From NCBI RefSeq assembly GCF_000590885.1, contig NZ_JFHN01000058.1, positions 1-64,000 on the forward strand: a stretch of DNA of 64,000 bases, read 5' to 3'. This document shows, one piece after another, positions 25,703-39,140 of this stretch (its first letter is position 1; every line of letters begins with the position of its first letter). The position numbers were made by a program, and so were the translations under genes. The notes under the pieces were generated by a model. The model did no database searches and was not told the origin of the DNA. It saw only the letters and a program-made list of their open reading frames with translations. Source of the DNA: Erwinia mallotivora. Lineage in GTDB: Bacteria > Pseudomonadota > Gammaproteobacteria > Enterobacterales > Enterobacteriaceae.

Positions 25703-26179
25703 CTACCATGCGTCTGGCGCGGGCGCATCCTCGCTAAAAGGCCACTGAAAAGCGCTCAGCACCTCCAGAGGATAGCGCTGACCCTGCTGGTAAATCCGCA
25801 GGCTTTCCGCCACCAGCGGCGAACGGAGTTTTCTGGCACTGAAGATCTCATCCGCTGGCAGCCACCAGCAGCGGTCAATATCACGGTCCTGCGGCCAGGT
25901 TGGCAGCATTTTTGGTAAATCCAGCGCGAACAGAAAACGCAGAAACGGCGTGTTATCCGGCGCGATCCATTGATGAAGACGTAAAAAAGCCTGAGGTACG
26001 GCTTCAAGACCCGTTTCTTCATAAAGCTCACGTGCAGCGGCCTGCAACAGGGTTTCGTTGGCTTCCAGATGACCGGCAGGCTGGTTCCAGGTGGCGCGGC
26101 CACGAACCATCTCCTCCACCACCAGAAAATGCCCCTCAGCCTGTACCACGGTTGCTACGGTGACGTGCGGTTTAAACAT
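25703..26179 (-). CDS. nudJ: Nudix phosphatase NudJ
   Basis: This 158-residue Nudix hydrolase has the full box starting G36-H-L-E-A-N-E and containing REL-YEETG. In E. coli NudJ hydrolyses nucleoside tri- and diphosphates and hydroxymethylpyrimidine pyrophosphate. I start at ATG 26179 ([20 protein letters not shown]), with GGAGTCAGAGAC in front; 21 codons further upstream are open but overlap rluE. It precedes mnmA in the same orientation. Confidence 0.94.
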
Positions 26180-26208
26180 GTCTCTGACTCCTTGTTGCCA
26201 GTAATGGC

Positions 26209-26841
26209 TTAACGGGGAAATTCGGCGGTAATATCTCGCCACTCTCCCGGCGATAAATCCTGCAACATGACGTTGCCTACCGCAAAGCGGATAAGGCGCA
26301 GGGTAGGAAAACCGATATGAGCGGTCATCCGCCTGACCTGACGATTGCGGCCTTCACAGAGCGTGATTTTCAGCCAGCTGACCGGAATCGCTTTGCGCTC
26401 GCGTATAGGAGGATTGCGCGGCCACAGCCAGTGTGGCTGGTCTACCCGTTCGACATCAGCAGGAAGGGTAGGGCCATCTTTAAGAATAACGCCCTGACGC
26501 AATGGCTGGATGTCTTCTTCTGAGGGCTCGCCTTCCACCTGAACGTAATAGATTTTACCCGTCTTTTTGCCGGGCTGAGTCAGGGTAGCCTGCAAGGCCC
26601 CGTCATTAGTCAGCACCATCAACCCTTCGCTGTCACGGTCAAGGCGTCCGGCAGCATAAACGCCCGGCAGCGGAATAAAATTCTTTAGCGTGCGTCGTCC
26701 GGCTTCATCGCTGAACTGGGGCAGCACGTCAAAAGGTTTGTTAAAAGCAATAACCCGACGTGGCCCGCTTTTCGCAGCCTGAGGGGAAGCTGATGAGCTG
26801 AATCGTTTAACGCGGTGATTCTTAAGGGAAGATTTAAGCAT
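26209..26841 (-). CDS. rluE: 23S rRNA pseudouridine 2457 synthase RluE
   Basis: This 210-residue protein of the RsuA/RluB/E/F family isomerises U2457 of 23S rRNA. The catalytic Asp is in GRLDRDSEG. The start at ATG 26841 ([11 protein letters not shown]) gives a length near that of E. coli RluE. The open frame runs 36 codons upstream into the icd promoter region, and no strong ribosome site distinguishes the starts, so the start is less certain than the identity. It is divergent from icd. Confidence 0.93.
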
Positions 26842-26973
26842 GTTATTTGCACTTGTTAACAATAAGCGCATTATAACGCAAACCGGTGATGATTGGCGCG
26901 GGCTGAATATTGCAGTAGTATTGTCCCGCATCTTACAAATCATTAACAAATAAAGCGCTCGAAGGAGAGGTTA

Positions 26974-28224
26974 ATGGAAAGCAAAGTAGTTGTTCCGGCG
27001 GAAGGTCAGAAAATCACCCTGGAAAAGGGCAAGCTCAACGTACCCAACAACCCGATCATTCCATTTATTGAAGGTGACGGGATTGGTGTGGACGTTTCTC
27101 CAGTGATGATTAAAGTCGTCGATGCCGCTGTGAAGAAAGCTTATAACGGTGAGCGTAAAATTTCCTGGATGGAAATTTACACCGGTGAGAAATCGGTAGA
27201 GCTTTACGGCCAGGACGTCTGGCTGCCACAAGAAACCCTCGATCTGATTAAAGAATATCGCGTGGCCATTAAAGGCCCGCTGACCACGCCGGTTGGTGGC
27301 GGTATTCGTTCGCTGAACGTGGCGCTGCGTCAGCAGCTTGATCTCTATATTTGTCTGCGCCCGGTTCGTTACTACACTGGCACACCAAGCCCGGTAAAAC
27401 GTCCGGAAGAGACCGACATGGTTATCTTCCGTGAAAACTCTGAAGATATTTATGCGGGTATTGAATGGAAAGCTGGTTCTGCTGAGGCAGACAAGGTAAT
27501 CAAATTCCTGCGTGATGAAATGGGTGTGAAGAAAATTCGCTTCCCTGAGCAGTGTGGTATTGGCGTCAAGCCTTGCTCTGAGGCGGGTACTAAGCGTCTG
27601 GTCCGCGCGGCGATTGAATACGCGATTACCAACGATCGTGACTCCGTCACCCTGGTCCACAAAGGCAACATTATGAAGTTCACCGAAGGCGCTTTCAAAG
27701 ACTGGGGTTACCAGCTGGCGAAAGAAGAGTTTGGTGGTGAGCTGATTGATGGCGGCCCCTGGATGAAGATTAAGAATCCAAACAACGGCAAAGAGATTGT
27801 CATCAAAGATGTTATCGCTGATGCATTCCTGCAACAGATCCTGCTGCGTCCTGCCGAGTATGATGTGATTGCCTGTATGAACCTGAACGGTGACTACATT
27901 TCTGATGCGCTGGCAGCACAGGTTGGCGGTATCGGTATTGCGCCTGGCGCAAATATTGGTGACGAGTGTGCGCTGTTCGAAGCAACGCACGGTACAGCAC
28001 CAAAATATGCAGGCCAGGACAAGGTGAATCCGGGTTCGGTCATTCTTTCTGCTGAGATGATGCTGCGTCACATGGAGTGGTTCGAAGCCGCTGACCTGAT
28101 TGTTAAAGGCATGGAAGGCGCGATTGCCGCGAAGACCGTGACTTATGACTTCGAACGTCTGATGGACGGTGCTAAGCTGCTGAAATCTTCAGAGTTTGGC
28201 GAAGCGATGATCAAGCATATGTAA
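26974..28224 (+). CDS. icd: Isocitrate dehydrogenase (NADP+)
   Basis: This 416-residue TCA-cycle enzyme has the E. coli length and converts isocitrate to 2-oxoglutarate. S113 in [12 protein letters not shown] is the residue phosphorylated by AceK in E. coli. The signature [17 protein letters not shown] and the [17 protein letters not shown] part are intact. GGAGAGG precedes the ATG. The 3' end is the integration site of e14/P21-type phages in E. coli, and a phage-like island begins just downstream here, though I find no duplicated icd end. Confidence 0.98.
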
Positions 28225-28241
28225 GCGGATTTGAGTTATAC

Positions 28242-28281
28242 AAAGCCAACATAATTGTTCAGATTGTGTTGGCTTTATTTT
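28242..28281 (+). terminator. Rho-independent terminator of icd
   Basis: AAAGCCAACA (28242-28251) pairs perfectly with TGTTGGCTTT (28267-28276), followed by ATTTTT. Confidence 0.85.
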
Positions 28282-28600
28282 TGTGGTTTTCCAGGGGGTA
28301 AATAAATCAGCCGTAGTTCAGCGCCACCAGGTGAGTTATCAGGACAGCATTCCTGCTGCCATTTCACCCGTTTATAAAGGGTGCGATGAAATATTTGTAC
28401 GGATATTAAGTATAAAGATGATCAATTTTCTGCATCAACAGATAATATATTGCAGGAAATAAGGGCCCGGGTATTGCGCATCGGGTTTTGACTGTCTGTA
28501 TCACGTTCTAACTTCACCCGGCAGAACTGATTTTTATTTTACAATCAGAGTTTTTTATTGAAAGACAGAGTGTTACGTTACAGATTCATTCTCCAGGTAG
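28282..28600. other. Intergenic region after icd
   Basis: I see no gene or repeat of the icd 3' end here. Base composition falls toward AT-rich from about 28.5 kb, marking the start of the accessory island. Confidence 0.5.
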
Positions 28601-29629
28601 TTAAAAAATTCTTCTTAATTTTTTAAACGTTCCTCTGGTTAAAGGATGTTTAGTAAATTTATAGGCTGCCTTAAGTACGATAAGTGGCAGTACCGGCAGA
28701 AGTTTACATATAATGGAAAGTTTGATTTTGTATGTTACAGGGGAATATTTGTTTTTCCACACAATTTCTTTGTATTCATTGAATATCGCGTTAACTTCTT
28801 TTCTGTCTTCACGATTACTTTTTGATATCTTGATAATGTCATGCATAAATGATGGACCGAACCGTGGGATCATTAAGTCGCGAAAATAAAACCTGCCCCG
28901 CACGTAATCATCTTCAAAAGTTGAACACAGCTTCTTAAAATACCTGAATCTGCTTCTGCTCATTTTTATTGAATATGAGGTGCTGTTATAGTTTATGCAC
29001 CAGACGTAAACCGGGGTATCAACAAAATAATTGCTGTAGCCTGACCTGAAAAAGCGCATGAACAGGTCGTCATCTTCATAACCGGTAAACTGCTCATCAA
29101 ATCCACCAATGTCCATAAAGGCTTTTTTACTGACTAATGTAGCCGAAGGCAGAACAAACATGTCATTGCCAATCAGATTGAAGATATCAGACTTAGGGTG
29201 GCTGGAGTGACGTTTTACCATGGAGGTAAAGAGTATGTTCCCATCGCCATCAGCTTCCATGCAATCGCCATAGGCATAACCGAAGCGGGAGTCATCAGTG
29301 GGCATGGCATTAACTAAAATTTCAATATGCTTATCAATATAGAAATCATCCTGATCAAGGAAACAGATAAAATCTGAAGTTGAAGAGCGGACACCTGAAT
29401 TTCTGGCTGAACCCTGGCCACCATTTTCTTTGTCTATAATAGTGAAGTTATACGTTTGCTGAAGGGCATAAAGGGCATCTCTTTCTTCCTCTTTAGAACC
29501 ATCGTTAACTACAATTATTTCCTTTGCCGGAAAAGATTGGTTCACAGCACTCACAATTGCCCTTTCGATCCACCGGGAGCCATTATAGTAAGCAATGACA
29601 ACGGCTACCGTAACTTCTTTATTGTTCAT
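28601..29629 (-). CDS. Family 2 glycosyltransferase
   Basis: This 342-residue protein has a GT-A fold N-terminus: VAVVIAYYNGSRWIERAIVS, VVNDGS, then ENGGQGSARNSGV and the metal-binding DQDD at residues 92-95. GYEDDDLFMRFFRSGY near 182 is the acceptor-site region. About 100 C-terminal residues are basic and may contact the membrane, but no clear transmembrane helix is seen. It probably transfers a sugar from a nucleotide donor to a surface polysaccharide; donor and acceptor are unknown. The gene is markedly more AT-rich than the backbone and stands alone after icd, suggesting horizontal acquisition. The ribosome site is weak. Confidence 0.85.
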   Translation of the reverse strand: MNNKEVTVAVVIAYYNGSRWIERAIVSAVNQSFPAKEIIVVNDGSKEEERDALYALQQTYNFTIIDKENGGQGSARNSGVRSSTSDFICFLDQDDFYIDKHIEILVNAMPTDDSRFGYAYGDCMEADGDGNILFTSMVKRHSSHPKSDIFNLIGNDMFVLPSATLVSKKAFMDIGGFDEQFTGYEDDDLFMRFFRSGYSNYFVDTPVYVWCINYNSTSYSIKMSRSRFRYFKKLCSTFEDDYVRGRFYFRDLMIPRFGPSFMHDIIKISKSNREDRKEVNAIFNEYKEIVWKNKYSPVTYKIKLSIICKLLPVLPLIVLKAAYKFTKHPLTRGTFKKLRRIF

Positions 29630-30371
29630 TTTTAAGCTGACCTTACTCTTATTGATACAGGGGATTCCATGTCTGTCAATTTATAAATCGTTATTGATAA
29701 TATAAAACATTTCATATTTTTTGTTTTCAATGAATGCTAAACAGATTTAGTATAATTAATAAATATCCTAAAGGCTATATTGATTTATTTTTGGCCTTTA
29801 AAGAAAATAAAACCACTGATTATTAATAAAGTATAAAAATGGCTTTTTCTTTTTATCAAATAAGTCTCAGCTGTAAATATTTTTTATCTGAATATTGGTA
29901 TGAATGAATAGATGTTATGGTGAGATGTCAGATAGAGCCCAGTAAGTGAAAAACGAGTAAAGATGCAATTGCGATTTTAACAAGCGCGCCCTGGGGAGTG
30001 ACAGTGGGAGGAGGAATCTGCCAGCAGGGAATGAGAATAAAGTCGTCTTAACCTGCTCTGGAGATACCTCACTTCTGAGGCATCAAAAACAATGAAAAAC
30101 GTAGCAGAACCTTTGCCCGGACGTCTCTGATTGAGACAGCGGCTTTAAGTATGACTATATGGGTAAACAGCACCATACATTACCACTGATAATAATCTTC
30201 TTGCCCTGTACCGGACAGCCGAGATTTCAGTGAGCAATCCGGGCCTGTACGACCCGGTTATCCACATGCATAATTCTTAATCATGTTGGCATTTCCATCA
30301 GTCGCGGGCATTAAGCGGATTCATGTTATATGCCGGGAAGTTGCAGGCTTGCAGGGCGGGTATCAGCCTGA
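29630..30371. other. AT-rich non-coding stretch of the island
   Basis: I find no supportable gene in these 740 bases. There are only short hairpins, such as CCTCA/TGAGG near 30067-30080. It may contain gene remnants that are too decayed to recognise. Confidence 0.45.
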
Positions 30372-30518
30372 TCAAAGCCCCCGATGTTGCAGAATGAACA
30401 ATGCAACGCGGTAGATAAAATTCTCTATTTCGATTAACAGTGGGACTGAAGTCACCGCCATGACAAAGATGCCAGCCAGAAATATAAAAATTAATGAGTA
30501 GACTATCTTTCGACGCAT
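30372..30518 (-). CDS. Small predicted membrane protein (48 aa)
   Basis: On the minus strand an ATG at 30518, preceded by AGAGGGACG, opens a 48-codon frame starting MRRKIVYSLIFIFLAGIFVM. Residues about 5-29 form one hydrophobic helix after a basic N-terminus, and a second hydrophobic stretch covers about 35-44. I do not recognise a family. It lies just downstream of the S24 repressor on the same strand, with 170 bp between. Confidence 0.5.
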   Translation of the reverse strand: MRRKIVYSLIFIFLAGIFVMAVTSVPLLIEIENFIYRVALFILQHRGL

Positions 30519-30687
30519 TAACGTCCCTCTTAAGTTAGCATATCAGGACCGGGCTTTAATGGTGTCACAAGTTTAAACATCGACCGTGACAGCAAAAAAA
30601 TTAAATTGCTGCCGGTCACGATATTAAAATTTCCCGCAAAGTTGCATTCTGCCATCAGGTGTCTGGCTGTAAAATGTCACTTTTCCA

Positions 30688-31377
30688 TTAGCCGTGGCGG
30701 CGAAACTGTTGGGACTGGCTGAGCATTACTCTGCCAGCGACGTGTAGCATGGTCAGCTCATCCCCGGAGATAGACCACTCCTTGTAACGGGGATTATCTG
30801 AGATGACCAGCAGTTCCGATTTCACTTTTTGCAGTCTTTTTACAAACATATCGCCGTTGAAATCGAAAACATAAATACCATCGCCGTCGAAAAACGACAC
30901 GCTGACGTCAACAAAAATCAAATCTCCTGGCTCGATAGTGCCTTCCATGCTGTCGCCGCGAACGTTAATTAATTTAACGCTGCCTTCAGGTTTATTGCCA
31001 AAGATAAGGCTGGCTTCTTTACGCACGTATTCAATGGAGCGGATGACCTGAACCATTTCACGGGCTTGAGAACCCTGGCCTGCGCTGGCTGAAACATCAA
31101 GAAAGTCAACTCGATACACATCATCTCTCCCCATTCCGGTTGATGAATCAGTACTGTATAAATAGCCAGTACTGTTAAGCTCTCCTGATGAGAATAGCTC
31201 AGAAATGGGGACGGCGAGAGCGTCAGCAATTTTTTGCAACAGGTTATCGCTGTAACCCTGTCGGCCACGTTCAAGTCGGGAAAGGTTACCGACATCACTC
31301 TCTACCAGTAATGCAAGATCATGCAAGGTCAGGTGCTTCGCTTTACGAAGCTCCCTGATACGTTCTCCAGGTTTCAT
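30688..31377 (-). CDS. LexA-like phage repressor (XRE HTH plus S24 peptidase)
   Basis: This 229-residue protein has an N-terminal HTH (about 5-60: ERIRELRKAKHLTLHDLALL, then GNLSRLERGRQGYS). A linker carries the Ala-Gly bond A99-G100 (SASAGQG), as in self-cleaving repressors. The S24 domain has catalytic S143 (GDSMEG) and K180 (MFVKRLQ). Such repressors cleave themselves when RecA is activated by DNA damage. It is divergent from an endolysin-holin-tailspike set, with palindromic operators between, and is the obvious switch for that cassette. Confidence 0.92.
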   Translation of the reverse strand: MKPGERIRELRKAKHLTLHDLALLVESDVGNLSRLERGRQGYSDNLLQKIADALAVPISELFSSGELNSTGYLYSTDSSTGMGRDDVYRVDFLDVSASAGQGSQAREMVQVIRSIEYVRKEASLIFGNKPEGSVKLINVRGDSMEGTIEPGDLIFVDVSVSFFDGDGIYVFDFNGDMFVKRLQKVKSELLVISDNPRYKEWSISGDELTMLHVAGRVMLSQSQQFRRHG

Positions 31378-31397
31378 CGGATTAATTCACCTTTTTT

Positions 31398-31460
31398 ATG
31401 CGCAATACGCAAAGTAACTTGCAGGAATGCAATTCGGTTACTAATATGCGTAATACGCAT
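31398..31460 (+). promoter_or_regulatory. Operators and rightward promoter of the lysis cassette
   Basis: O1 (31398-31412, ATGCGCAATACGCAA) and O2 (31446-31460, ATGCGTA-A-TACGCAT, a perfect palindrome) share a 15-bp pattern, with centres 48 bp apart. A sigma-70 promoter toward the endolysin has TTGCAG (31419-31424), 17 bp, then TAATAT (31442-31447). Its -10 overlaps O2, so repressor there should block it. O1 lies 21-35 bp upstream of the repressor ATG and probably autoregulates it. Confidence 0.8.
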
Positions 31461-31463
31461 TAA

Positions 31464-31619
31464 ATGTTACTCCTGTTCCTGTCCCCTGGTGTTGTGCTGG
31501 TGTTCAGGCCTCTCAGCACAATGGGACAGCTGTCTGAGTATACGCATTTTTTGCTGTTACGTGCTGTTGATTCTCATCACATGACCGCCCTGGGCTGCCA
31601 TGTTCCTGGCATCAGGTAG
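31464..31619 (+). CDS. Possible 51-aa leader ORF, low support
   Basis: An ATG immediately after operator O2 opens 51 codons (MLLLFLSPGVVLVFRPLSTM...) to a TAG. There is no ribosome site, and the start lies only about 10 bases after the expected transcription start. It occupies the place where a cro-like gene would be in a phage, but shows no HTH. It may simply be untranslated leader. Confidence 0.2.
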   Translation: MLLLFLSPGVVLVFRPLSTMGQLSEYTHFLLLRAVDSHHMTALGCHVPGIR

Positions 31620-31661
31620 CTTCTGCTGATGCTTTAACCGTGGGTGAGTGGAGAAATAGCT

Positions 31662-32129
31662 ATGAGTCAGATCGTTGCATTATTGAAATATGAAGAAGGT
31701 TATCGCGATGTCCCTTTTATCGACACTCAGGGATATCCCACCGTGGGATGCGGCATCAAAATCGGCCCGAAAGGTGCGCCGCTGACCAGTTACATTTTCA
31801 GGGTCCCCATCGTAGTGGGGGAGCTGTGGATGCAGAATCTGGTCATGAGCAAAATTTATGACATGAAGCAGCAACCGCAGCTGGCTCAGGCGTTAAGCCA
31901 GTGTAATCAGCCCCGCACCGACATTCTCTACAGCATGGCATACCAGCTTGGGGTGACAGGTCTTTGCGCATTTCGTCAAATGCTGGCAGCGGTGACGAAG
32001 GGGGACTTTTCATCGGCGGCAGACAATATGCTTAACAGCCTGTGGGCAAAGCAGACGCCAGCCAGAGCAGCACGCCATGCTGCGGTAATGCGTGACGGAA
32101 ACTGGGACAGCTACCGGGGGTTATTATGA
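31662..32129 (+). CDS. Phage-type endolysin (GH24 lysozyme)
   Basis: This 155-residue lysozyme of the T4 class cleaves the MurNAc-GlcNAc bond of peptidoglycan. The catalytic E-8aa-D-5aa-T pattern is intact as E12, D21 and T27. GGAG lies 8-11 bases before ATG 31662, which I prefer to the GTG at 31644. There is no signal peptide or SAR anchor at the N-terminus, so release to the periplasm would need a holin, and a holin-like frame follows. The stop overlaps the next ATG (ATGA). Confidence 0.88.
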   Translation: MSQIVALLKYEEGYRDVPFIDTQGYPTVGCGIKIGPKGAPLTSYIFRVPIVVGELWMQNLVMSKIYDMKQQPQLAQALSQCNQPRTDILYSMAYQLGVTGLCAFRQMLAAVTKGDFSSAADNMLNSLWAKQTPARAARHAAVMRDGNWDSYRGLL

Positions 32130-32227
32130 AATTTGCCCTCTATCTCTGCTCGATCCTGCTGGCGATTGTGCTACTGATGCTGATCAGCCGCCACAGTCGA
32201 ATTGAATTTGTGCATCACGCAAATTAA
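32126..32227 (+). CDS. 33-aa single-helix membrane protein of the lysis cassette
   Basis: The ATG at 32126 overlaps the endolysin stop. The protein MKFALYLCSILLAIVLLMLI... has one hydrophobic helix (about 3-20) and a short, basic, His-rich tail. Size and position suit a lysis accessory such as an inner-membrane spanin remnant. Its TAA is in frame with the following holin-like frame, so the two may once have been one protein or a readthrough pair. Too short for family assignment. Confidence 0.45.
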   Translation: MKFALYLCSILLAIVLLMLISRHSRIEFVHHAN

Positions 32228-32470
32228 CTGTTCAGAACCTGGTCCGTCTGGCTGGCTTCGCTGGGATCGGCGCTCAGTGCCTGGGTGCAGTCATTTCCCG
32301 ATGCAGCGATGCGGGCATGGCAGCAACTGCCCCCGGAAGTGAAGTCGATAATTCCGCAAAATTACCTCGGCATGATTGGCGCATTTATGGTCGCAATGGC
32401 CGTGATAGCACAGTTTGTCCGACAAAACTCGCTGGCGGAACAGCGACAAAAGCTCGATCAAAATACCTGA
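32228..32470 (+). CDS. Holin-like protein, start codon unclear
   Basis: Between stops at 32225 and 32470 the frame encodes about 80 residues: FRTWSVWLASLGSALSAWV, then FPDAAMRAWQQLPPEVKSII and a second helix LGMIGAFMVAMAVIAQFV with a charged tail (RQNSLAEQRQKLDQ). Two helices flanking a short loop, with a basic C-terminus next to an endolysin, are typical of small phage holins. The first standard start is GTG 32285, which would delete helix 1; a full protein would need CTG at 32228 or readthrough. It may therefore be decayed or use an unusual start. Confidence 0.6.
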   Translation: MFRTWSVWLASLGSALSAWVQSFPDAAMRAWQQLPPEVKSIIPQNYLGMIGAFMVAMAVIAQFVRQNSLAEQRQKLDQNT

Positions 32471-32653
32471 ACAGATCCTTTGCCCGATCGTCGGCCGCGC
32501 TGAAAAAACGGGTCTTTCCCGTGTGGAAAACCTGATGAAAACGGGGGGCCGGGATCCTGTCAACATGTTTTACCTTCACCACGTCACGCTGACGCGTTGT
32601 GATAACCGCCCGTCCGGGCAACTGCTTCACCTGCTATTCATCCGGAGGTTGTT

Positions 32654-34405
32654 ATGATTGAAGTAAATTGCTTTGCCGATCTGAGAACCACAGCACCAGC
32701 TAAAGCGGGGGATATCGCCGCCCTCAAACGTTATTACGATAAAGATTCCAGCTTTCATGGCGGAGGCGATTTCGTTGGTTTTACCGGCACCACCACCTTA
32801 AGTGATGATGGAGGTACGCTGGCGAAGGGCAGTAGCTTTTACTGGAAGCGAATCGTCAATGATACAGAGGAGGTTAATCTTTATCACTTTGGCGCCAGAG
32901 GCGATGGTGTCACCGATGATGCTGATGCCTTTAAACGGATGCTGAGCTGGTCACAGAGCTATGACAGTAACGTTAAAAATATCGGCGTGCGTTTTCCGGC
33001 AGGAAAATTCCTCATTTCACCGATAGACCTCAGCGCCAGTGAAATTCCCTGTTTTGCGATTTATGGCGATGACTGTCCTTATGGTGTGTCGCCCCGTACC
33101 ACCATTATTTCTGATAAGTCAGCGAATACGGTGTTTAAAGTCAACGCCCGGCGCAGCATGATCCGGGGGATTGCCTGGAACGGGCAGGCCACGGCAGATA
33201 CCACCAGTAATACAGGCGCAATTACCGCCGGTATGTTGTCCAACGTTCAGCCTTTTTTTGAAAACATCACCACGGAAGGCGAGTTTGTCAGAATATGTTG
33301 TTTTCGGGCGCAATATAACGGCGGTACGGTAATTAAATTACTGGACACGCTGGATACGCATTTCGACCAGATCTACACCCAGAACACCTATGCGCGGGTG
33401 ATTGATGTTAGCTGGTCCAACTCGCCAAATGGTGTCTGGGACCACTGCACGGCAATAGAGTTGTCAAATGCCAACTTCCAGTACGGTTATGGTGATGCCA
33501 CGCTGATGATGCCGCGCCTCACCCAGGGCGTTATCCGTAATGTCTGGATAGAGCACACCCGCTTTCCTGGCGACCTGAGTAATGGGCAGTGGGTGGTTGA
33601 CGCACTCAGCGTCGAGGATTGTGATAATGCCCTGTGTATGAATGACAGCCGCGCATTGATCCGTCAGCTCAATCTTCAGTCCGGATCTTCAGTGACGAAT
33701 GACTCCACTACCGGGTGCTGGCTCTCAGCTTATGAACGAGGCTGGCGGCGTGATGAGAATTTCGGCACGGTGATGACGGGATCGTTGAAAGCAGGCTGGT
33801 ACAGCGGTTTCAAAATGAGTAACACCTCCGCAGTCGATAAATGGTATCGCCTGGGTAAATTTACCTTTCCCAAAGCCAACCAGCAGTGGACGGTGGAGAT
33901 GATCAGCAAGTTGTCGACGGCTGCGCCATCCGGCATCGCCGCCAACCCGTTACAGGCGGTATCTTCCGGCGTAACCTGGCTTAACCTGCAACGGTGCGCC
34001 AGCAGTGTCGCCGCAGATATGTTTCACCGTGGCCTGACAGCGATTCTTGATGTGAAATACAAACCGAGTTATTCGGATATCGTTGAGGTGTGGGTCAAAC
34101 TGAAAGCCGGAAGCGGGGACACGATGTTTAACCTGAGGTCAACCGGACCAACTCGCTTTGAGTCGGGAAACTGCTCTTTGTTTACCCCGGATCTGACCGA
34201 AGTGACGGATGAAACCACCGTGGGAACGGTGAGTCCGAACGCCCGGTTAAGTTTTCATAATGGTCTTGCCGGGATGGGAGCCAATGAAAAGGGTGTGGTG
34301 ACGCTGGCAACCTCAGAGGCTACGCCGCCTGCGGGTAGCGCTCCTTCGGGGTATATCACTCTTAACGTTAACGGTTCCGATCGCAAATTCCCTTATTACA
34401 ATTGA
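32654..34405 (+). CDS. Orphan phage tailspike / polysaccharide depolymerase
   Basis: This 583-residue protein starts MIEVNCFADLRTTAPAKAGD, and GGAGG precedes its ATG. Its N-terminal 75 residues match the pattern seen before the catalytic part of many capsule-degrading tailspikes (ADLRTT..., GGGDF, DDGGT, WKR). NLYHFGARGDGVTDDADAF at about 75-93 is the start of a Pectate_lyase_3 type right-handed beta-helix. The C-terminus ends in a fibre-like strand (SGYITLNVNGSDRKFPYYN). There is no signal peptide. Such proteins trim host capsule or EPS. No tail, capsid or chaperone genes accompany it; it follows the endolysin/holin and ends at a strong terminator. Confidence 0.85.
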   Translation: MIEVNCFADLRTTAPAKAGDIAALKRYYDKDSSFHGGGDFVGFTGTTTLSDDGGTLAKGSSFYWKRIVNDTEEVNLYHFGARGDGVTDDADAFKRMLSWSQSYDSNVKNIGVRFPAGKFLISPIDLSASEIPCFAIYGDDCPYGVSPRTTIISDKSANTVFKVNARRSMIRGIAWNGQATADTTSNTGAITAGMLSNVQPFFENITTEGEFVRICCFRAQYNGGTVIKLLDTLDTHFDQIYTQNTYARVIDVSWSNSPNGVWDHCTAIELSNANFQYGYGDATLMMPRLTQGVIRNVWIEHTRFPGDLSNGQWVVDALSVEDCDNALCMNDSRALIRQLNLQSGSSVTNDSTTGCWLSAYERGWRRDENFGTVMTGSLKAGWYSGFKMSNTSAVDKWYRLGKFTFPKANQQWTVEMISKLSTAAPSGIAANPLQAVSSGVTWLNLQRCASSVAADMFHRGLTAILDVKYKPSYSDIVEVWVKLKAGSGDTMFNLRSTGPTRFESGNCSLFTPDLTEVTDETTVGTVSPNARLSFHNGLAGMGANEKGVVTLATSEATPPAGSAPSGYITLNVNGSDRKFPYYN

Positions 34406-34424
34406 TTAATATTGTGCATCTTAT

Positions 34425-34448
34425 ACCGCCCCTCGAGGGCGGTTTTTT
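34425..34448 (+). terminator. Rho-independent terminator of the tailspike cassette
   Basis: ACCGCCC (34425-34431) pairs with GGGCGGT (34437-34443), followed by TTTTT. Confidence 0.9.
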
Positions 34449-34759
34449 CTGGCGTGATGCGAATAAAATTCCAACGATTACTGACGGAAATAGTCACGCA
34501 GATTTATTCTGTTACAGGAAAATCAGTGATTTTTTAACGAATTAAGTACAGCTGCACAGGGTAAAAAGGTAAGGTAACGCCTTGTCTTATAGTATTAATC
34601 TGTACTGCGCGAAAATCTGGCTGATTATGTTGTATAAGTGGCGGTTATTGAGTCAAACAGGATTAAAACATCAAACTTTAATGACCAGTGGCGATCGGGG
34701 TTGAGATGCCGGTCGGTTGGTCCGTAGAATAGGTCCATAACACAAATCAGGAGAATTCC
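34449..34759. other. Non-coding stretch before the 68-aa gene
   Basis: I see no coding sequence. The promoter of the small gene at 34760 is presumably here. Confidence 0.4.
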
Positions 34760-34966
34760 GTGTCAGAAGTCGTGCCAGCACATCAACAGCCCGGTCGTCT
34801 GGAAGAAGCAAAAAATATTGCTTTAGGGTGGCGCATCATCGGTCAGATAACCCCACATAGCCTGGAAGAGGCGATTCAACTGTTGCGAGACAGTTCTGCC
34901 CACGCAACCACAGTTTATGAACTGCTGTCAGCTGAGATCAGCGAAAAGTCACACCGACAGGGTTAA
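34760..34966 (+). CDS. Hypothetical 68-aa protein
   Basis: GTG start at 34760 preceded by CAGGAGAATTCC. The sequence MSEVVPAHQQPGRLEEAKNI... looks helical and soluble (EEAKNIALGWRIIG, then LEEAIQLLRDSSAHATTVYEL). No family recognised. It sits between the tailspike terminator and an SOS-type gene within the accessory island. Confidence 0.5.
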   Translation: MSEVVPAHQQPGRLEEAKNIALGWRIIGQITPHSLEEAIQLLRDSSAHATTVYELLSAEISEKSHRQG

Positions 34967-35309
34967 GGACTGAAACGCGTTGGCTTTCTTTTGCACAGCA
35001 TCTGTTAATCGTTGGGCATAACCTTTAGCGCAAAACCGGCGCAGTGTTTTCAGGAAGCGAGCGGTTCAGACAGCGTTGCAATTATTAAGCTGACCAGCAG
35101 AAGGCTTGAGTGAAGATTGCGCAAAACCATCGGGCAACAACAATATACCCATATAGTTTGTGATGATTTCCGTGGAAAAAAATGCCCGCACAGATATATC
35201 ACGGGCCAACACCAGGGAAAATAGTTCGATAAGCCTGGCATGTTGGTGCTGAAATGCAATGTACAGGGTGCATTTTCTGAAAAAGCAGCTGTAAAAAGAA
35301 AAATACAGT
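34967..35309. other. Non-coding stretch between the 68-aa gene and the DinI-like gene
   Basis: Only open frames of biased, low-likelihood composition (many Cys, Trp and Phe) cross this region. I see no RNA gene or repeat. Confidence 0.4.
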
Positions 35310-35555
35310 TCAGAACGGTTCTGCCACCAGCCACTGGTCAGCTTCTTCAAACATCTCTTCAATCAGACGTAGCATTACCGACTTGTCACTTTTACTGGCA
35401 TCGGTTTTAACACTGTTTGCCTGCATCGGTTTTACTTTCACCTCGGCATCCGGAAACACCCGCCTGATGCGTTTCTCCAGTTCATTGTGGATCATCTGCT
35501 CTGCGCCCGGTAAACCGGCAACGTTGCGTTTATCGTAAATCAGCTCAACAAACAT
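35310..35555 (-). CDS. DinI/MsgA-like SOS protein
   Basis: This 81-residue protein starts MFVELIYDKRNVAGLPGAEQ and ends FEEADQWLVAEPF, the DinI-family layout (beta strand, helix with ELEKRIRRVFPDAEV, strand, helix). It is closest in my memory to Salmonella MsgA and phage DinI-like proteins. DinI modulates RecA filaments and so tunes self-cleavage of LexA, UmuD and phage repressors. A good LexA box lies 20 bp upstream, so it should be DNA-damage inducible. Its closeness to the S24-repressor cassette may be functional. Confidence 0.85.
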   Translation of the reverse strand: MFVELIYDKRNVAGLPGAEQMIHNELEKRIRRVFPDAEVKVKPMQANSVKTDASKSDKSVMLRLIEEMFEEADQWLVAEPF

Positions 35556-35574
35556 ATCTTAGTCCTGTAGAAAA

Positions 35575-35594
35575 TACTGGATGAAAATACAGTT
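35575..35594 (-). promoter_or_regulatory. LexA (SOS) box upstream of the DinI-like gene
   Basis: TACTGGATGAAAATACAGTT contains CTG-N10-CAG with TA flanks, the LexA box pattern, 20 bp before the start codon. Confidence 0.75.
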
Positions 35595-35665
35595 ATTTAT
35601 AATGATCTTCAATCATTTTTTGTTGAGCTACACTGCATAGTGAACTGATAACTAAGAGAAGCTTT

Positions 35666-35890
35666 ATGAAACGCAAATTGATTATTTTATTGGTAACAGC
35701 ATCAGGCGCTTTACTGGCGGGTTGTTCCGATAACCATATGATGCATATGAAAGACGGCAGCAGTGTTGTCGTTCAGGGGAAACCACATAAGGATAAAGCG
35801 GCCGGCATGGTGATTTATACCGATGAAAATGGCAAACAGCAGGCGGTCAGTCAGGGCGACATTAAAGAGATGACTGACCTGGAAAACTGA
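35666..35890 (+). CDS. YgdI/YgdR-family lipoprotein
   Basis: This 74-residue protein has a signal peptide with lipobox LLAGC (Cys at about 19) and then a small DUF903-type beta domain (MKDGSSVVVQGKPHKDKAAG, then GMVIYTDENGKQQAVSQGDI). Family members are small envelope lipoproteins without a settled function. GAGAAGC precedes the ATG. It starts the pair of small envelope genes before ldcA. Confidence 0.85.
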   Translation: MKRKLIILLVTASGALLAGCSDNHMMHMKDGSSVVVQGKPHKDKAAGMVIYTDENGKQQAVSQGDIKEMTDLEN

Positions 35891-35994
35891 CATTCCAGGT
35901 GAAGTCTGATTGTATCAACCGGGTGACAGGGGGCAGGATCTGTCCGAAATGGATTATTAATCTTATCAAAGAGAAAGCCTGGAGAGACCTGTCC

Positions 35995-36402
35995 ATGTTG
36001 CCCACCGTCGTTGCCGGAGCCCTGCTGGCCGGTATTGCTTTTTCCGCCTGCGGATCATCAGCCACACCCCCTGTCATTAATACTGAGTATCAGATTACCT
36101 GTCCCGGCCGTCCCGGCATGACCATTACCAACGCCCAGTTTGGTCTCACCACTATGATGTGGGCCGGAGACAATTTTCAGATTGCAGAGGGTAATCAACA
36201 ATCGCAAACCAGTGACGGGATGAAAGTGGCGATCACACTGTTTCGTAATGGCGATCAGATGATGGTGAATGAGTCGAATCAACAAACCTGGTTTTCATAC
36301 AGCGGCGGTCAGAAACTGGTGCGGTGTAACCGCAGTGCCGGACATGAAAACAGTACGGTCACGCTGCCACATACCGATGCCTCGGGCAGGGTGACCTCGT
36401 AA
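35995..36402 (+). CDS. Putative lipoprotein, possibly MliC-like
   Basis: I start at ATG 35995 (MLPTVVAGALLAGIAFSACG), with GGAGAGA before it, giving 135 residues. The open frame extends upstream to 35899 but that part is not signal-like. The segment FSAC could be a lipobox, although Phe at -3 is unusual. The mature part is beta-rich with two cysteines (YQITCPG and KLVRCNR) bracketing about 80 residues, a layout like the MliC lysozyme-inhibitor domain. This resemblance is weak and is inference; otherwise hypothetical. Confidence 0.5.
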   Translation: MLPTVVAGALLAGIAFSACGSSATPPVINTEYQITCPGRPGMTITNAQFGLTTMMWAGDNFQIAEGNQQSQTSDGMKVAITLFRNGDQMMVNESNQQTWFSYSGGQKLVRCNRSAGHENSTVTLPHTDASGRVTS

Positions 36403-36452
36403 GGCAACCATCGTCATAGCGCACCGGTTGTCGGGCAAACGGCGTCGAAATC

Positions 36453-37376
36453 TTATTGCAGCGTTGGATGCCCGGTCAACGTCAGGGTGCTGATGCCCTC
36501 TCTGACCTGCAAATGTCCCTGTGCGCCAAGTGGTAGGGTGACGGTGCGCCAGTGATGGCCAAATTCCAGGTCGGTAATCACCGGCAGACCGGTTATCTGC
36601 TGGATCAATGACCAGACACTGGCAAAATCGTAACCGTCGTCATAATCAGTCAGCGTGCTGCCGGTAAAACTTCCGGTGATAATGGCCTGCTGCCGTGCCA
36701 GGATCCCGCTTTGAGCCAGCTGTAACAGCATTCGTTCAACGCGAAACGGATGTTCATTGACGTCTTCAATTACCAGAATTCCGCCATTAATTTCGGGCAG
36801 CCAGGGCGTACCTGACAGCGAAGACAGCATTGCCAGATTTCCGCCCCAGACCGTCCCGGTACAATTGAGCGTCTGCTGTGATGTCGTGGGCCAGGACAGG
36901 ACTAACTCTGGCATGCTCATCGCCCGCCAGAAGTGCTCCATAGTGAAATCAGACAAACTTTCCGCACCAAAATTACCGGCCAACATTGGCCCACTGAAGG
37001 TAATGGCCTGGTGTTGGAGCAAGGCCATTTGCAGTACGGTGAAGTCGCTGTGACCGCAAATCGCCATCGGGTGTTTTGCCAGACGGGCGGCGAGGGCGGC
37101 CGCGTTGAAATTCGGTAGCAGACGGGTTGCGCCATAGCCTCCGCGTACAGCCAGCACAATATCCGGCTGACAGTCAGGATCAATCAACTGATGCATATCC
37201 GCCAGCCGTTGGCGATCGCTGCCGGCAAAGCGTTGTTCCCGGCGGCCTGTCACCCCGGTGTTGACCACGTGATGGCCCTGAGCCCTGAGCCTTTGCACGG
37301 CAAGAGAGGCAGCCTGCTGATTCTGGCAATAACCAGAAGGTGCAATCAGATGAAAAGTGCGGGGAATGACGGACAT
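36453..37376 (-). CDS. ldcA: Murein tetrapeptide L,D-carboxypeptidase LdcA
   Basis: This 307-residue S66-family serine peptidase removes the terminal D-Ala from murein tetrapeptides in the cytoplasm during peptidoglycan recycling. The nucleophile is S110 (CGHSDFT), and GGILVIEDVNEHPFRVERML and GHHWRTVTLPLG carry the Glu and His. I start at ATG 37376 (MSVIPRTFHLIAPSGYC); 17 in-frame codons upstream are not conserved. It is divergent from emtA, as in E. coli. Confidence 0.95.
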   Translation of the reverse strand: MSVIPRTFHLIAPSGYCQNQQAASLAVQRLRAQGHHVVNTGVTGRREQRFAGSDRQRLADMHQLIDPDCQPDIVLAVRGGYGATRLLPNFNAAALAARLAKHPMAICGHSDFTVLQMALLQHQAITFSGPMLAGNFGAESLSDFTMEHFWRAMSMPELVLSWPTTSQQTLNCTGTVWGGNLAMLSSLSGTPWLPEINGGILVIEDVNEHPFRVERMLLQLAQSGILARQQAIITGSFTGSTLTDYDDGYDFASVWSLIQQITGLPVITDLEFGHHWRTVTLPLGAQGHLQVREGISTLTLTGHPTLQ

Positions 37377-37658
37377 AATGGATGTTTTTACCTTTTTTTT
37401 CCGCGCGGGATGACGGTTTTTTAACAATTTTGATGACGTAGTGGCAAAAAGCGAGCGCTTTTTTTATCATTTGCCTGATTTTTATCCAGTGGCGATAGAT
37501 TGTCTTATCATTCTGGCAAACCGAACAGGGTGATAATGACGAAAAGTCGAAATGAAGTCATCTGCATCACCCTTAAAATTAAGAGTGGAGGTAATTTTCT
37601 TCAGTCAAACAGTCGTTAAGATGAAGTGCGAGGCAAAATCTCAGAGGAAGAATATAGC

Positions 37659-38294
37659 GTGAGAAGCGTGAAGAGCGTTGCGGTGGTGGCAGTTCTGATA
37701 CTGGCGGGATGTGCCAGTGAGCCACATAAGCAGATAATTACTCAACAACAGCAGACACCCTTAACCAAAGCGCCACCCGAAAAAGTTGCCCAGGCCTGGT
37801 CATTATTTACCGGTGACGCAGCCCACAACTATGGTGTTGACCAGAAACTGATTGACGCCATCATTTCGGTGGAATCGGGCGGCAATCCAACGGTAGTCAG
37901 TAAGTCGAATGCCATTGGATTGATGCAGATTAAAGCCGCCACGGCAGGACGCGAAGTCTACCGGGCGCAGGGGCGGCGTGGTCAGCCGAGCAGTTCTGAA
38001 CTTCGCGATCCGGTTAAAAATATCGATATAGGTACGGCATATCTGAAAATCTTGCAGGATCGTTCTCTTGCCGGTATCCGCAATCAGGAAACCCTGCGTT
38101 ATGCCACCATTGTCTCCTACGCCAACGGTGCCGGCGCTTTGCTGAGAACCTTCTCCTCTGACCGGGATCGCGCCATCGCGATGATCAACGCGATGAGCCC
38201 TGAGGAGTTTTACCGACATGTACAAAATAAGCACCCGGCGGCCCAGGCCCCACGCTATCTGTGGAAAGTGACCACCGCGTACCGCACTATCTGA
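37659..38294 (+). CDS. emtA: Membrane-bound endo-type lytic transglycosylase EmtA
   Basis: This 211-residue outer-membrane lipoprotein cleaves glycan strands of peptidoglycan to anhydro-muropeptides. I start at GTG 37659 (MRSVKSVAVVAVLILAGC), with AGAGGAAG upstream. The lipobox Cys is C18. The SLT domain has catalytic E72 (SVESGGNP), then AIGLMQIKAAT and VSYANGAGALLR. The end APRYLWKVTTAYR matches E. coli EmtA. Confidence 0.94.
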   Translation: MRSVKSVAVVAVLILAGCASEPHKQIITQQQQTPLTKAPPEKVAQAWSLFTGDAAHNYGVDQKLIDAIISVESGGNPTVVSKSNAIGLMQIKAATAGREVYRAQGRRGQPSSSELRDPVKNIDIGTAYLKILQDRSLAGIRNQETLRYATIVSYANGAGALLRTFSSDRDRAIAMINAMSPEEFYRHVQNKHPAAQAPRYLWKVTTAYRTI

Positions 38295-38303
38295 AGGTTG
38301 CCA

Positions 38304-38324
38304 GCGGCAGGGTGAATCTGCCGC
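38304..38324 (+). terminator. Hairpin after emtA
   Basis: GCGGCAG (38304-38310) pairs with CTGCCGC (38318-38324) 10 bp after the stop. There is no clear U-run. Confidence 0.45.
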
Positions 38325-38402
38325 CAGCCCTGAATGAATTTCTCCAGCACAGACCCGGGCTGCTGTTATATTCCGCTATCAGGGACAGACAGCGACTGTG
38401 AC

Positions 38403-39140
38403 TTACAAAAAACGGGTCGCTTTATCACGTGCCAGCCGCTCGAGAAGGAAAATCACCTGTTGCAAATCACGCTCCTGCGCGACGTTCAGGTGAATAAAGC
38501 GAAAACTGAGTCGCGGCGTGACCACGGTTTCATTTTTAGCGCTCACCACACTGTGTTTGCCGGTATGGATAAGTTGCGCATCCACTTCAAAGCGGCCATA
38601 TTCTCCCAGCTCCACGCGTAACTTTCTGAACTCCTGCCCCTCTTTCAGCTCCGGCGGCAGGGGGGTATCACCCAGTGCGGCAATGCCGCCAAGTGAGAGA
38701 TCCTGGAGACGCATTCTTCCTTCGCCCGAGCCATCCGGCCACTGCACGTAACAATAAAAAATGGGATCGAGGGGCGCGTTAACGCGGAAAAATTCCCGGC
38801 GCTGAATCAACCACAGCTTGTCTGGCAGGGAGGAGAAAAAAGCGGGCAGTCCGTCATGATTGCCTGCCTCAGGCGTGCTGAGCGAAAACTCCACCCTGGC
38901 ACCCTGTGTCTCCGCCCACAGTTGCAGGCAGTCTGCTTCCTGCACCAGCTGGTTATCGTAATCGTTACTGCCATAATCAATCACCACCCGCTCGCGATCG
39001 GCTGACAGCAGCTTTGAGATAAATTGCCCCCTGTCATGCGCAACCAGAACTGGCGTCTGATTTTTAAGCAGGCTTTTCAGCACGGCCAGTACGGCCAGCG
39101 GACCGTGTTTCAGATACTGATCTTTGTCTTCCTCTTTCAC
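38403..39140 (-). CDS. ycgR: Flagellar brake protein YcgR (c-di-GMP effector)
   Basis: This 245-residue protein binds c-di-GMP and slows the flagellar motor. The N-terminal YcgR domain is followed by a PilZ domain with R115-x-x-x-R119 and D147-x-S149-x-x-G152. The length matches E. coli YcgR (244). A near-consensus sigma-28 promoter lies about 50 bp upstream, placing it in the motility regulon. Confidence 0.96.
   Translation of the reverse strand: MKEEDKDQYLKHGPLAVLAVLKSLLKNQTPVLVAHDRGQFISKLLSADRERVVIDYGSNDYDNQLVQEADCLQLWAETQGARVEFSLSTPEAGNHDGLPAFFSSLPDKLWLIQRREFFRVNAPLDPIFYCYVQWPDGSGEGRMRLQDLSLGGIAALGDTPLPPELKEGQEFRKLRVELGEYGRFEVDAQLIHTGKHSVVSAKNETVVTPRLSFRFIHLNVAQERDLQQVIFLLERLARDKATRFL

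Follow-up and report, generated by a model that had tools for sequence, protein, structure and literature searches.

Organization of the island

The first 64,000 nucleotides of Erwinia mallotivora contig NZ_JFHN01000058.1 (hereafter the window) carry a small island between icd (26974–28224) and dinI (35310–35555), a location designated site A. It contains a CI-like repressor gene on the minus strand and, on the plus strand, genes for an endolysin, a holin and a stand-alone tailspike-like protein (the spike) predicted to be an exopolysaccharide (EPS) depolymerase. The original prediction had read this island as an SOS-type switch driving lysis and depolymerase release, with a decaying prophage as the alternative. 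Scanning of the open reading frames (ORFs) between icd and dinI, seven against Pfam and six against PHROGs, yielded no capsid, tail-tube, integrase or replication gene, as that prediction had stated; the integrase, replication, terminase, head and tail genes of a functional lambdoid prophage were likewise absent among the scanned site-A ORFs of the window.

The repressor (30688–31377, 229 amino acids) was identified by Pfam and PHROG matches and alignment. It combines a Peptidase_S24 domain (E 1e-20) with a helix-turn-helix domain (HTH_3), and alignment verified the A99–G100 cleavage dipeptide, S143 and K180 expected of a self-cleaving protein. It resembles the repressor of phage ENT47670 (70% DNA identity). 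The endolysin (31662–32129, 155 amino acids) is a soluble-type GH24 enzyme by Pfam (Phage_lysozyme, E 1.4e-5), PHROG (endolysin, 1.6e-14) and locus comparison. ATG 31662, preceded by GGAG, is a better candidate for its start than GTG 31644; numbered from this ATG, the proposed E12/D21/T27 triad holds, its residues being kept in 66/66, 66/66 and 65/66 intact homologues, respectively.

The holin gene (32126–32470) matches PHROG 1356 'holin' (E 2.2e-10 for 32285–32470), upholding the earlier holin call, but an in-frame TAA at 32225–32227 splits it into 33 and 80 codons. In the five further site-A genomes whose cassette is intact, a single frame of 114–119 amino acids, overlapping the endolysin stop, encodes the holin. 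Annotated phage holins of the same family measure 113 (KY271400) and 119 amino acids (NC_071008), with endolysin, holin and two Rz-like spanins consecutive in NC_071008. The interruption probably weakens or abolishes release in this genome. The spike gene (32654–34405, 583 amino acids), preceded by a good Shine–Dalgarno sequence, is followed by an intrinsic terminator (34425–34443, plus strand; a stem of seven pairs, six of them G–C, then TTTTTT), the single terminator that had been placed at the end of the island. A terminator scan of the window found no plus-strand terminator-like site between the endolysin start and the spike start.

A depolymerase-like spike without export signal

The spike matches PHROG 4250 'EPS depolymerase' (E 3e-173). 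Among solved structures it comes closest to Pantoea stewartii WceF (6tgf, E 3.5e-99), with spike residues 4–582 aligned to WceF 170–732 and residue 4 opposite 170. WceF also ranked first in Foldseek with a template-modelling (TM) score of 0.48, evidence weaker than the sequence match given a moderate structure model (mean predicted local distance difference test score 73, predicted TM-score 0.55). The assignment as a 583-residue beta-helix tailspike stands. PMC7949094 presents WceF as a hydrolase that cleaves stewartan and carries a twin-arginine translocation (Tat) signal, mutations in the Tat-exported enzyme raising stewartan size. WceF and AmsF, of the stewartan and amylovoran operons, are beta-helix enzymes homologous to the spike (about 34–39% identity). 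Together, these relationships point to an exopolysaccharide as the spike substrate and to a predicted EPS depolymerase.

WceF lies in an EPS cluster and has, beyond the Tat signal, about 140 extra residues at its N terminus. Both are missing from the island spike, which also sits at icd/dinI with lysis genes rather than in an EPS operon, in contrast to both WceF and AmsF. It begins MIEVN…, with no signal peptide recognizable by eye (no signal-peptide program was used), as the original prediction had noted. An N-terminal virion-binding domain is lacking as well, residue 2 aligning to PHROG 4250 position 150. All 77 homologues whose alignment begins at residue 1 start there with an ATG of their own, accompanied by a Shine–Dalgarno-like 4-mer. 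A role as a spare virion part is disfavoured, since no aligned copy encodes a virion-binding domain before its start.

The same genome holds two further relatives. An AmsF-like ORF on contig C50 has MKRRELITGFSS, a Tat-like sequence, near its start and glycosyltransferase-like neighbours. A third tailspike-like paralogue (G000:C37:55204-56772; 33% identity, a 595-codon frame) shows no obvious signal.

Recurrence at four chromosomal sites

Neighbourhood comparison across Erwinia and Pantoea revealed that a repressor, lysis genes and a stand-alone spike recur at four chromosomal sites in Erwiniaceae, with host gene names taken from a reading of the ORFs. Site A is occupied in the window, E. psidii, E. 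rhapontici, E. aphidicola, E. typographi, Erwinia sp. ErVv1 and further genomes. Site B lies between fliF/fliE/cheV and a GGDEF gene, often with lolCDE; site C is beside lepA-rnc-era-recO-pdxJ; and site D lies between proA and a tRNA-Thr gene, the latter found in 6/7 D loci scanned. Site D hosts are mostly Pantoea, joined by Mixta, E. phyllosphaerae and a small number of records with other names. The comparison covers 81 distinct loci, three of them at none of the four sites, and includes near-duplicates (L028/L029, L027/L070).

A typical copy comprises the CI-like repressor, endolysin, holin and spike. This core is intact in 35/40 loci at D, 16/22 at B, 2/3 at C and 5/13 at A, where 'intact' denotes a tblastn piece covering at least 80% of the reference without a stop. 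Cassettes at B and C add a Q antiterminator (PF06530), those at D an N-like antiterminator (PHROG 271), and those at B and D two small Rz-like spanin genes, labelled Rz and Rz1. Each of these two genes is intact in 38/40 loci at D and 17/22 at B. Core, antiterminator and both spanins are all intact in 34/40 D and 16/22 B loci. Spanin references matched nothing in the 13 A loci, window included, or in the three C loci, and at site A the antiterminator references gave only one partial Q-like match (L057). Little space for the missing prophage genes remains at B and D between the cassette and conserved host genes. A tailocin is rejected, given that the ORFs scanned in the window island include no tail gene and that B and D leave little space for any.

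Spikes of the free class are widespread. Within the window's own genus, 24/36 genomes (its own plus 35) carry a copy, full-length in 23, and in a second genus, probably Pantoea, 50/61 genomes have a full-length one. A separate scan of genome contigs kept 80 of 130 hits, of which the first 61 were taken as the free-spike class.

Retention is uneven. Stops, frameshifts or losses affect 8/13 site-A loci, the window holin included (other broken copies are L025, L042 and L043). E. rhapontici, E. aphidicola and E. typographi have a site-A spike without the cassette repressor, endolysin and holin, one or two other holin-family genes still lying upstream in the first two. Four site-B genomes (L040, L041, L047 and L049) keep intact Q and spike, with no repressor, endolysin, holin or spanins in the locus comparison; L040 is the same contig as L123, from E. 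piriflorinigrans, with which the other three group.

Upstream of the site-A repressor or spike, L024 (6433–7087) has two additional holin-family genes (PF16931 and PF05449), with equivalents in L025, L026, L028–L030 and L043 and no match in the window or E. psidii (L023). At site B, an 88-residue protein is encoded directly 3′ of the spike (L044 10784–11050 and equivalents; dN/dS, the ratio of nonsynonymous to synonymous substitution rates, 0.117), without a Pfam or PHROG match.

Selection and co-divergence with the host

Substitution ratios were obtained for sites A, B and D, dropping pairs with dS outside 0.05–1.0 at B and D, and those with dS ≥ 3 from the all-pair medians at A. At site D, median dN/dS was 0.044 for the repressor, 0.18 for N, 0.115 for the endolysin, 0.18 each for holin and Rz, 0.48 for Rz1 and 0.086 for the spike, against 0.087 and 0.038 for the host controls proA and proB. 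Site B gave, with pairs in brackets, 0.073 for the repressor (28), 0.078 for Q (3), 0.092 for the endolysin (2), 0.18 for the holin (4), 0.39 for Rz1 (4) and 0.113 for the spike (4), with 0.099 (14) for the GGDEF control; the two to four usable pairs for endolysin, Q, holin and spike make these ratios rough. Between the window and E. psidii at site A, values of 0.050 (repressor), 0.063 (endolysin), 0.138 (holin) and 0.049 (spike) compare with 0.016 (icd), 0.040 (dinI), 0.046 (emtA) and 0.137 (ldcA), the cassette ratios again being rough as dS exceeds 1. Across the three sites, endolysin, holin and spike thus range over 0.05–0.18 versus 0.02–0.14 for flanking host genes, and every gene tested falls below 1, indicating purifying selection on these three genes as judged from substitution patterns.

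Protein distances of the cassette followed those of the host, with correlations of 0.74–0.86 at D and 0.69–0.91 at B; none of 999 permutations reached as high, and the proB host control at D gave 0.76. A rapid tree search of the spikes, with SH-aLRT (Shimodaira–Hasegawa-like approximate likelihood ratio test) as the sole branch support, placed A, B and D in separate clades (100, 99 and 100), with B and D as sisters (98). Duplicates, matches spanning < 450 residues, broken spikes (L042, L043, L124, L125, L128), viral rows L172–L186 and 16/22 AmsF-like rows were left out. Two spikes departed from this pattern: that of E. typographi (L111), from the icd site, clustered with the C class, and that of L053, located elsewhere, fell inside the D clade. 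IMG/VR contigs within the three clades carry the same cassettes.

The B and D results argue strongly against recent insertion and neutral decay: distance congruence disfavours recent independent phage insertions at both sites, and dN/dS disfavours neutral decay of the whole block there, a process accepted in part for A. Site A is eroding, the window copy visibly so.

Predicted operators and the repressor switch

In the repressor–endolysin intergenic region, a perfect palindrome, ATGCGTAATACGCAT (31446–31460), is a predicted repressor operator. The same or a near-same palindrome occurs in 7/7 site-A intergenic regions (two identical), and ATGCGTAATACGCAT has a single match in the window, where 0.22 would be expected with up to one mismatch. 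It overlaps the −10-like TAATAT (31442–31447) of a weak promoter-like pair facing the endolysin (31419–31447, plus strand), TAATAT lying 17 bp from TTGCAG. This pair, read from the sequence, scores 7/12 consensus positions by eye and is retained in the site-A alignment; a sigma-70 promoter scan of the window did not list it. A second, imperfect operator-like palindrome, TGCGCAATACGCA (31399–31411), lies upstream of the repressor start, with a related sequence at the equivalent position in the other six site-A regions. No LexA-type box (CTGT-N8-ACAG) is present in the window.

Self-cleavage residues differ among sites. At A, Ser and Lys are intact in every repressor seen, two ErVv1-type copies having E–G in place of A–G, and the Ser–Lys dyad is intact in 5/5 repressor rows at C. 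Site-D repressors retain Ser in 37/40 and Lys in 40/40, with a variable cleavage dipeptide, whereas in all 27 site-B rows (some genomes counted twice) the catalytic Lys is replaced by Tyr. Because the site-A repressor keeps its self-cleavage residues, an SOS (DNA-damage) trigger is a fair prediction for A, as it is for C; it is uncertain at D and, since the site-B repressor lacks the catalytic lysine, unlikely at B. The DNA-damage trigger originally proposed is therefore compatible with the window residues but does not extend to the module in general, and SOS control of the whole module is rejected for B. Rewiring of site B away from SOS after domestication was also considered and dropped, as the repressor of a prophage-like contig (L167) reads with the same residues, Lys to Tyr included; the site-B repressor type was probably inherited from phage.

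Three site-D repressors have Ala in place of the catalytic Ser (L086, P. stewartii; L090, P. allii; L125, P. ananatis), with a broken or partial endolysin in L086 and a broken or partial spike in L125. Five site-A loci (L024, L025, L026, L028, L029) carry a leader between repressor and endolysin in which boxA-like GCTCTTT precedes TACAGGTGCC; in three of the five loci this is palindromic (TACAGGTGCCTGTA). The arrangement resembles an N-utilisation site, though site A has no N gene, and was not seen in the window or E. psidii.

Neighbouring genes and remaining features

Between icd and the island, the window encodes a GT2 glycosyltransferase (28601–29629) resembling glycosyltransferases near the AmsF-like gene (24–33% identity) and unmatched in the other icd-site loci compared. 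A 68-residue ORF (34760–34966) downstream of the spike matches nothing in Pfam or PHROGs and shows conservation at site A, with dN/dS of about 0.1. No tRNA gene was found in the window and no Rfam element in 26000–39000, and matches to the icd 3′ end that might mark attachment (att) repeats in the window were at chance level. The E. typographi locus (L057) carries, downstream of icd, a second copy of 65 bp from the icd 3′ end (78% identical), which points to a former phage attachment site next to that island.

Phage relatives

Metagenomic contig L168 reads as a lambdoid prophage with the order Q, holin, lysozyme, Rz, spike, HNH, small terminase and tail. In L167, a repressor, an endolysin, Rz and a spike lie close to tail-like genes. 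Repressor, Q, holin and spike were assigned from matches on these contigs; all other gene names come from a reading of the ORFs. Lysis-linked spikes thus exist in temperate phages, the chromosomal sites having retained the repressor and this lysis–spike segment. A stand-alone relative of the spike also occurs in some Erwinia phages: the depolymerases of phiEaP8 and pEa_SNUABM_7 share its start point, align over full length (47–50% identity) and branch outside the A, B and D clades, with no annotated lysis gene in the surrounding 7.8 and 5.8 kb. Phage phiEa1h presumably carries a lysozyme–holin–depolymerase cluster.

Discussion

Taken together, the island is probably the site-A copy of an apparently prophage-derived, likely domesticated four-site module, whose job would be to lyse a fraction of cells and release an EPS depolymerase. 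The repressor would hold the operators before the endolysin shut, and the lysis genes of sites B, C and D would also be gated by an antiterminator, Q or N. Upon repressor release, with DNA damage as the predicted trigger at site A, holin, endolysin and, where present, spanins could open the cell, allowing the folded spike to escape and trim the EPS of surrounding kin. Lytic release is the best reading of the predicted depolymerase, and the simplest, because an enzyme of a class acting on extracellular polymers is made without an export signal beside lysis genes. The module appears domesticated rather than random debris, as cores are intact, dN/dS is low at A, B and D, and distances are host-like at B and D.

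Several observations weigh against this interpretation. Site A keeps its core in only 5/13 loci, lacks recognizable spanins and, apart from the partial L057 match, antiterminators, and includes the interrupted window holin; Rz1 evolves fast; and the ratios at A and B are approximate. Because the loci were found via the spike, its intactness is biased upward. The spikes kept without cassette lysis genes at sites A and B further imply that the spike is valuable without its own lysis cassette. Release by the window copy is doubtful in particular, given the interrupted holin and the absence of a spanin match throughout site A. The lytic release of a depolymerase proposed for this locus is thus favoured by the recurrence of the cassette, its dN/dS, the signal-less cargo and its nearest EPS glycosidase, but weakened for the window itself, where the copy is likely being lost even as selection continues to act on the spike itself.

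If the loci were ordinary decaying prophage remnants, lambdoid phages carrying the spike beside lysis genes and the remainder simply not yet deleted, L168 and L167 would provide a natural ancestor for the lysis–spike block, and the decay of 8/13 site-A loci, window holin included, would be expected. The complete cassettes in 34/40 D and 16/22 B loci, with host-like divergence, are at odds with this, as are dN/dS values of 0.04–0.18 for all B and D cassette genes other than Rz1 (0.39–0.48); separate sites, moreover, lost the rest yet retained the same kind of set. We regard this explanation as unlikely overall, already disfavoured for B and D by these patterns and acceptable in part for A. Against the conditions that the original prediction had set for its own rejection, the picture is mixed: broken copies occur at site A and contig L168 reads as a prophage with the lysis–spike block, whereas most B and D copies are intact and follow host divergence.

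A possible but clearly weaker alternative is that only the spike was domesticated for EPS trimming, being freed by any cell death, with the lysis genes otherwise used, for example in programmed lysis feeding extracellular DNA and vesicles into the biofilm. Spikes persisting without cassette lysis genes in several genomes fit this view, and explosive lysis in a biofilm subpopulation of Pseudomonas aeruginosa, freeing cytosolic content, is known (PMC4834629); the start of that abstract mentions no dedicated depolymerase cargo of the kind seen in the module. Conversely, endolysin, holin and spike share one strand in the window with no terminator-like site intervening, and lysis genes and spike occur together in most B, C and D loci, a weak point given the spike-based search. 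Least probable, in our judgement, is a defence device in which the repressor confers immunity to related phages and abortive lysis additionally removes EPS receptors from kin. The strong conservation of the site-D repressor, with one of the lowest dN/dS values in the cassette (0.044), and the window repressor's likeness to that of ENT47670 would suit such a role, but antiterminator, spanins and spike are unnecessary for immunity.

Lysis-based release has precedent in type 10 secretion. As outlined in PMC10847048, Serratia ChiWXYZ and Yersinia entomophaga YenLC comprise a holin, a peptidoglycan hydrolase and spanins that are not part of a phage and have regulators and host genes nearby, and some cells lyse to release the cargo. 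The module is similar in having holin and hydrolase genes between host genes, outside an intact phage (the holin interrupted in the window), and a cargo lacking an N-terminal export signal by eye. It differs in its GH24 phage-type lysozyme, in the phage-type repressor it has kept, in the antiterminator kept at B, C and D, in a tailspike-like cargo in the same gene row, in occupying four unrelated chromosomal sites, and in the absence of recognizable spanins at A. The hydrolases of known type 10 systems are, to our knowledge, peptidases. Titles and abstract starts in the open-access PubMed Central literature yielded no description of this cassette. The module is best called a variant of lysis-based, type 10-like release, with the window copy as a partly eroded member.

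A bolder proposal, which we hold to be evenly balanced, is that Erwiniaceae have repeatedly tamed lambdoid prophages into a 'slime-cutter' form of suicide secretion, combining a repressor, a Q/N timer, lysis genes and a signal-less depolymerase. It would have been retained at several chromosomal sites over a genus-scale time and, at site B, would respond to something other than SOS under a repressor type unable to cleave itself; a few sacrificed cells would thereby reshape the EPS matrix, or dissolve it, to the benefit of kin. It is the module family, more than the window copy, that is of interest. If the reading is correct, coupling of a second, signal-less class of the WceF-type enzyme to lysis genes would constitute a new release route for a matrix-degrading enzyme and broaden type 10, lysis-based secretion to include the remodelling of polysaccharides, and the module would offer a case of prophage domestication in which phage transcription logic, repressor plus antiterminator, has been kept under selection.

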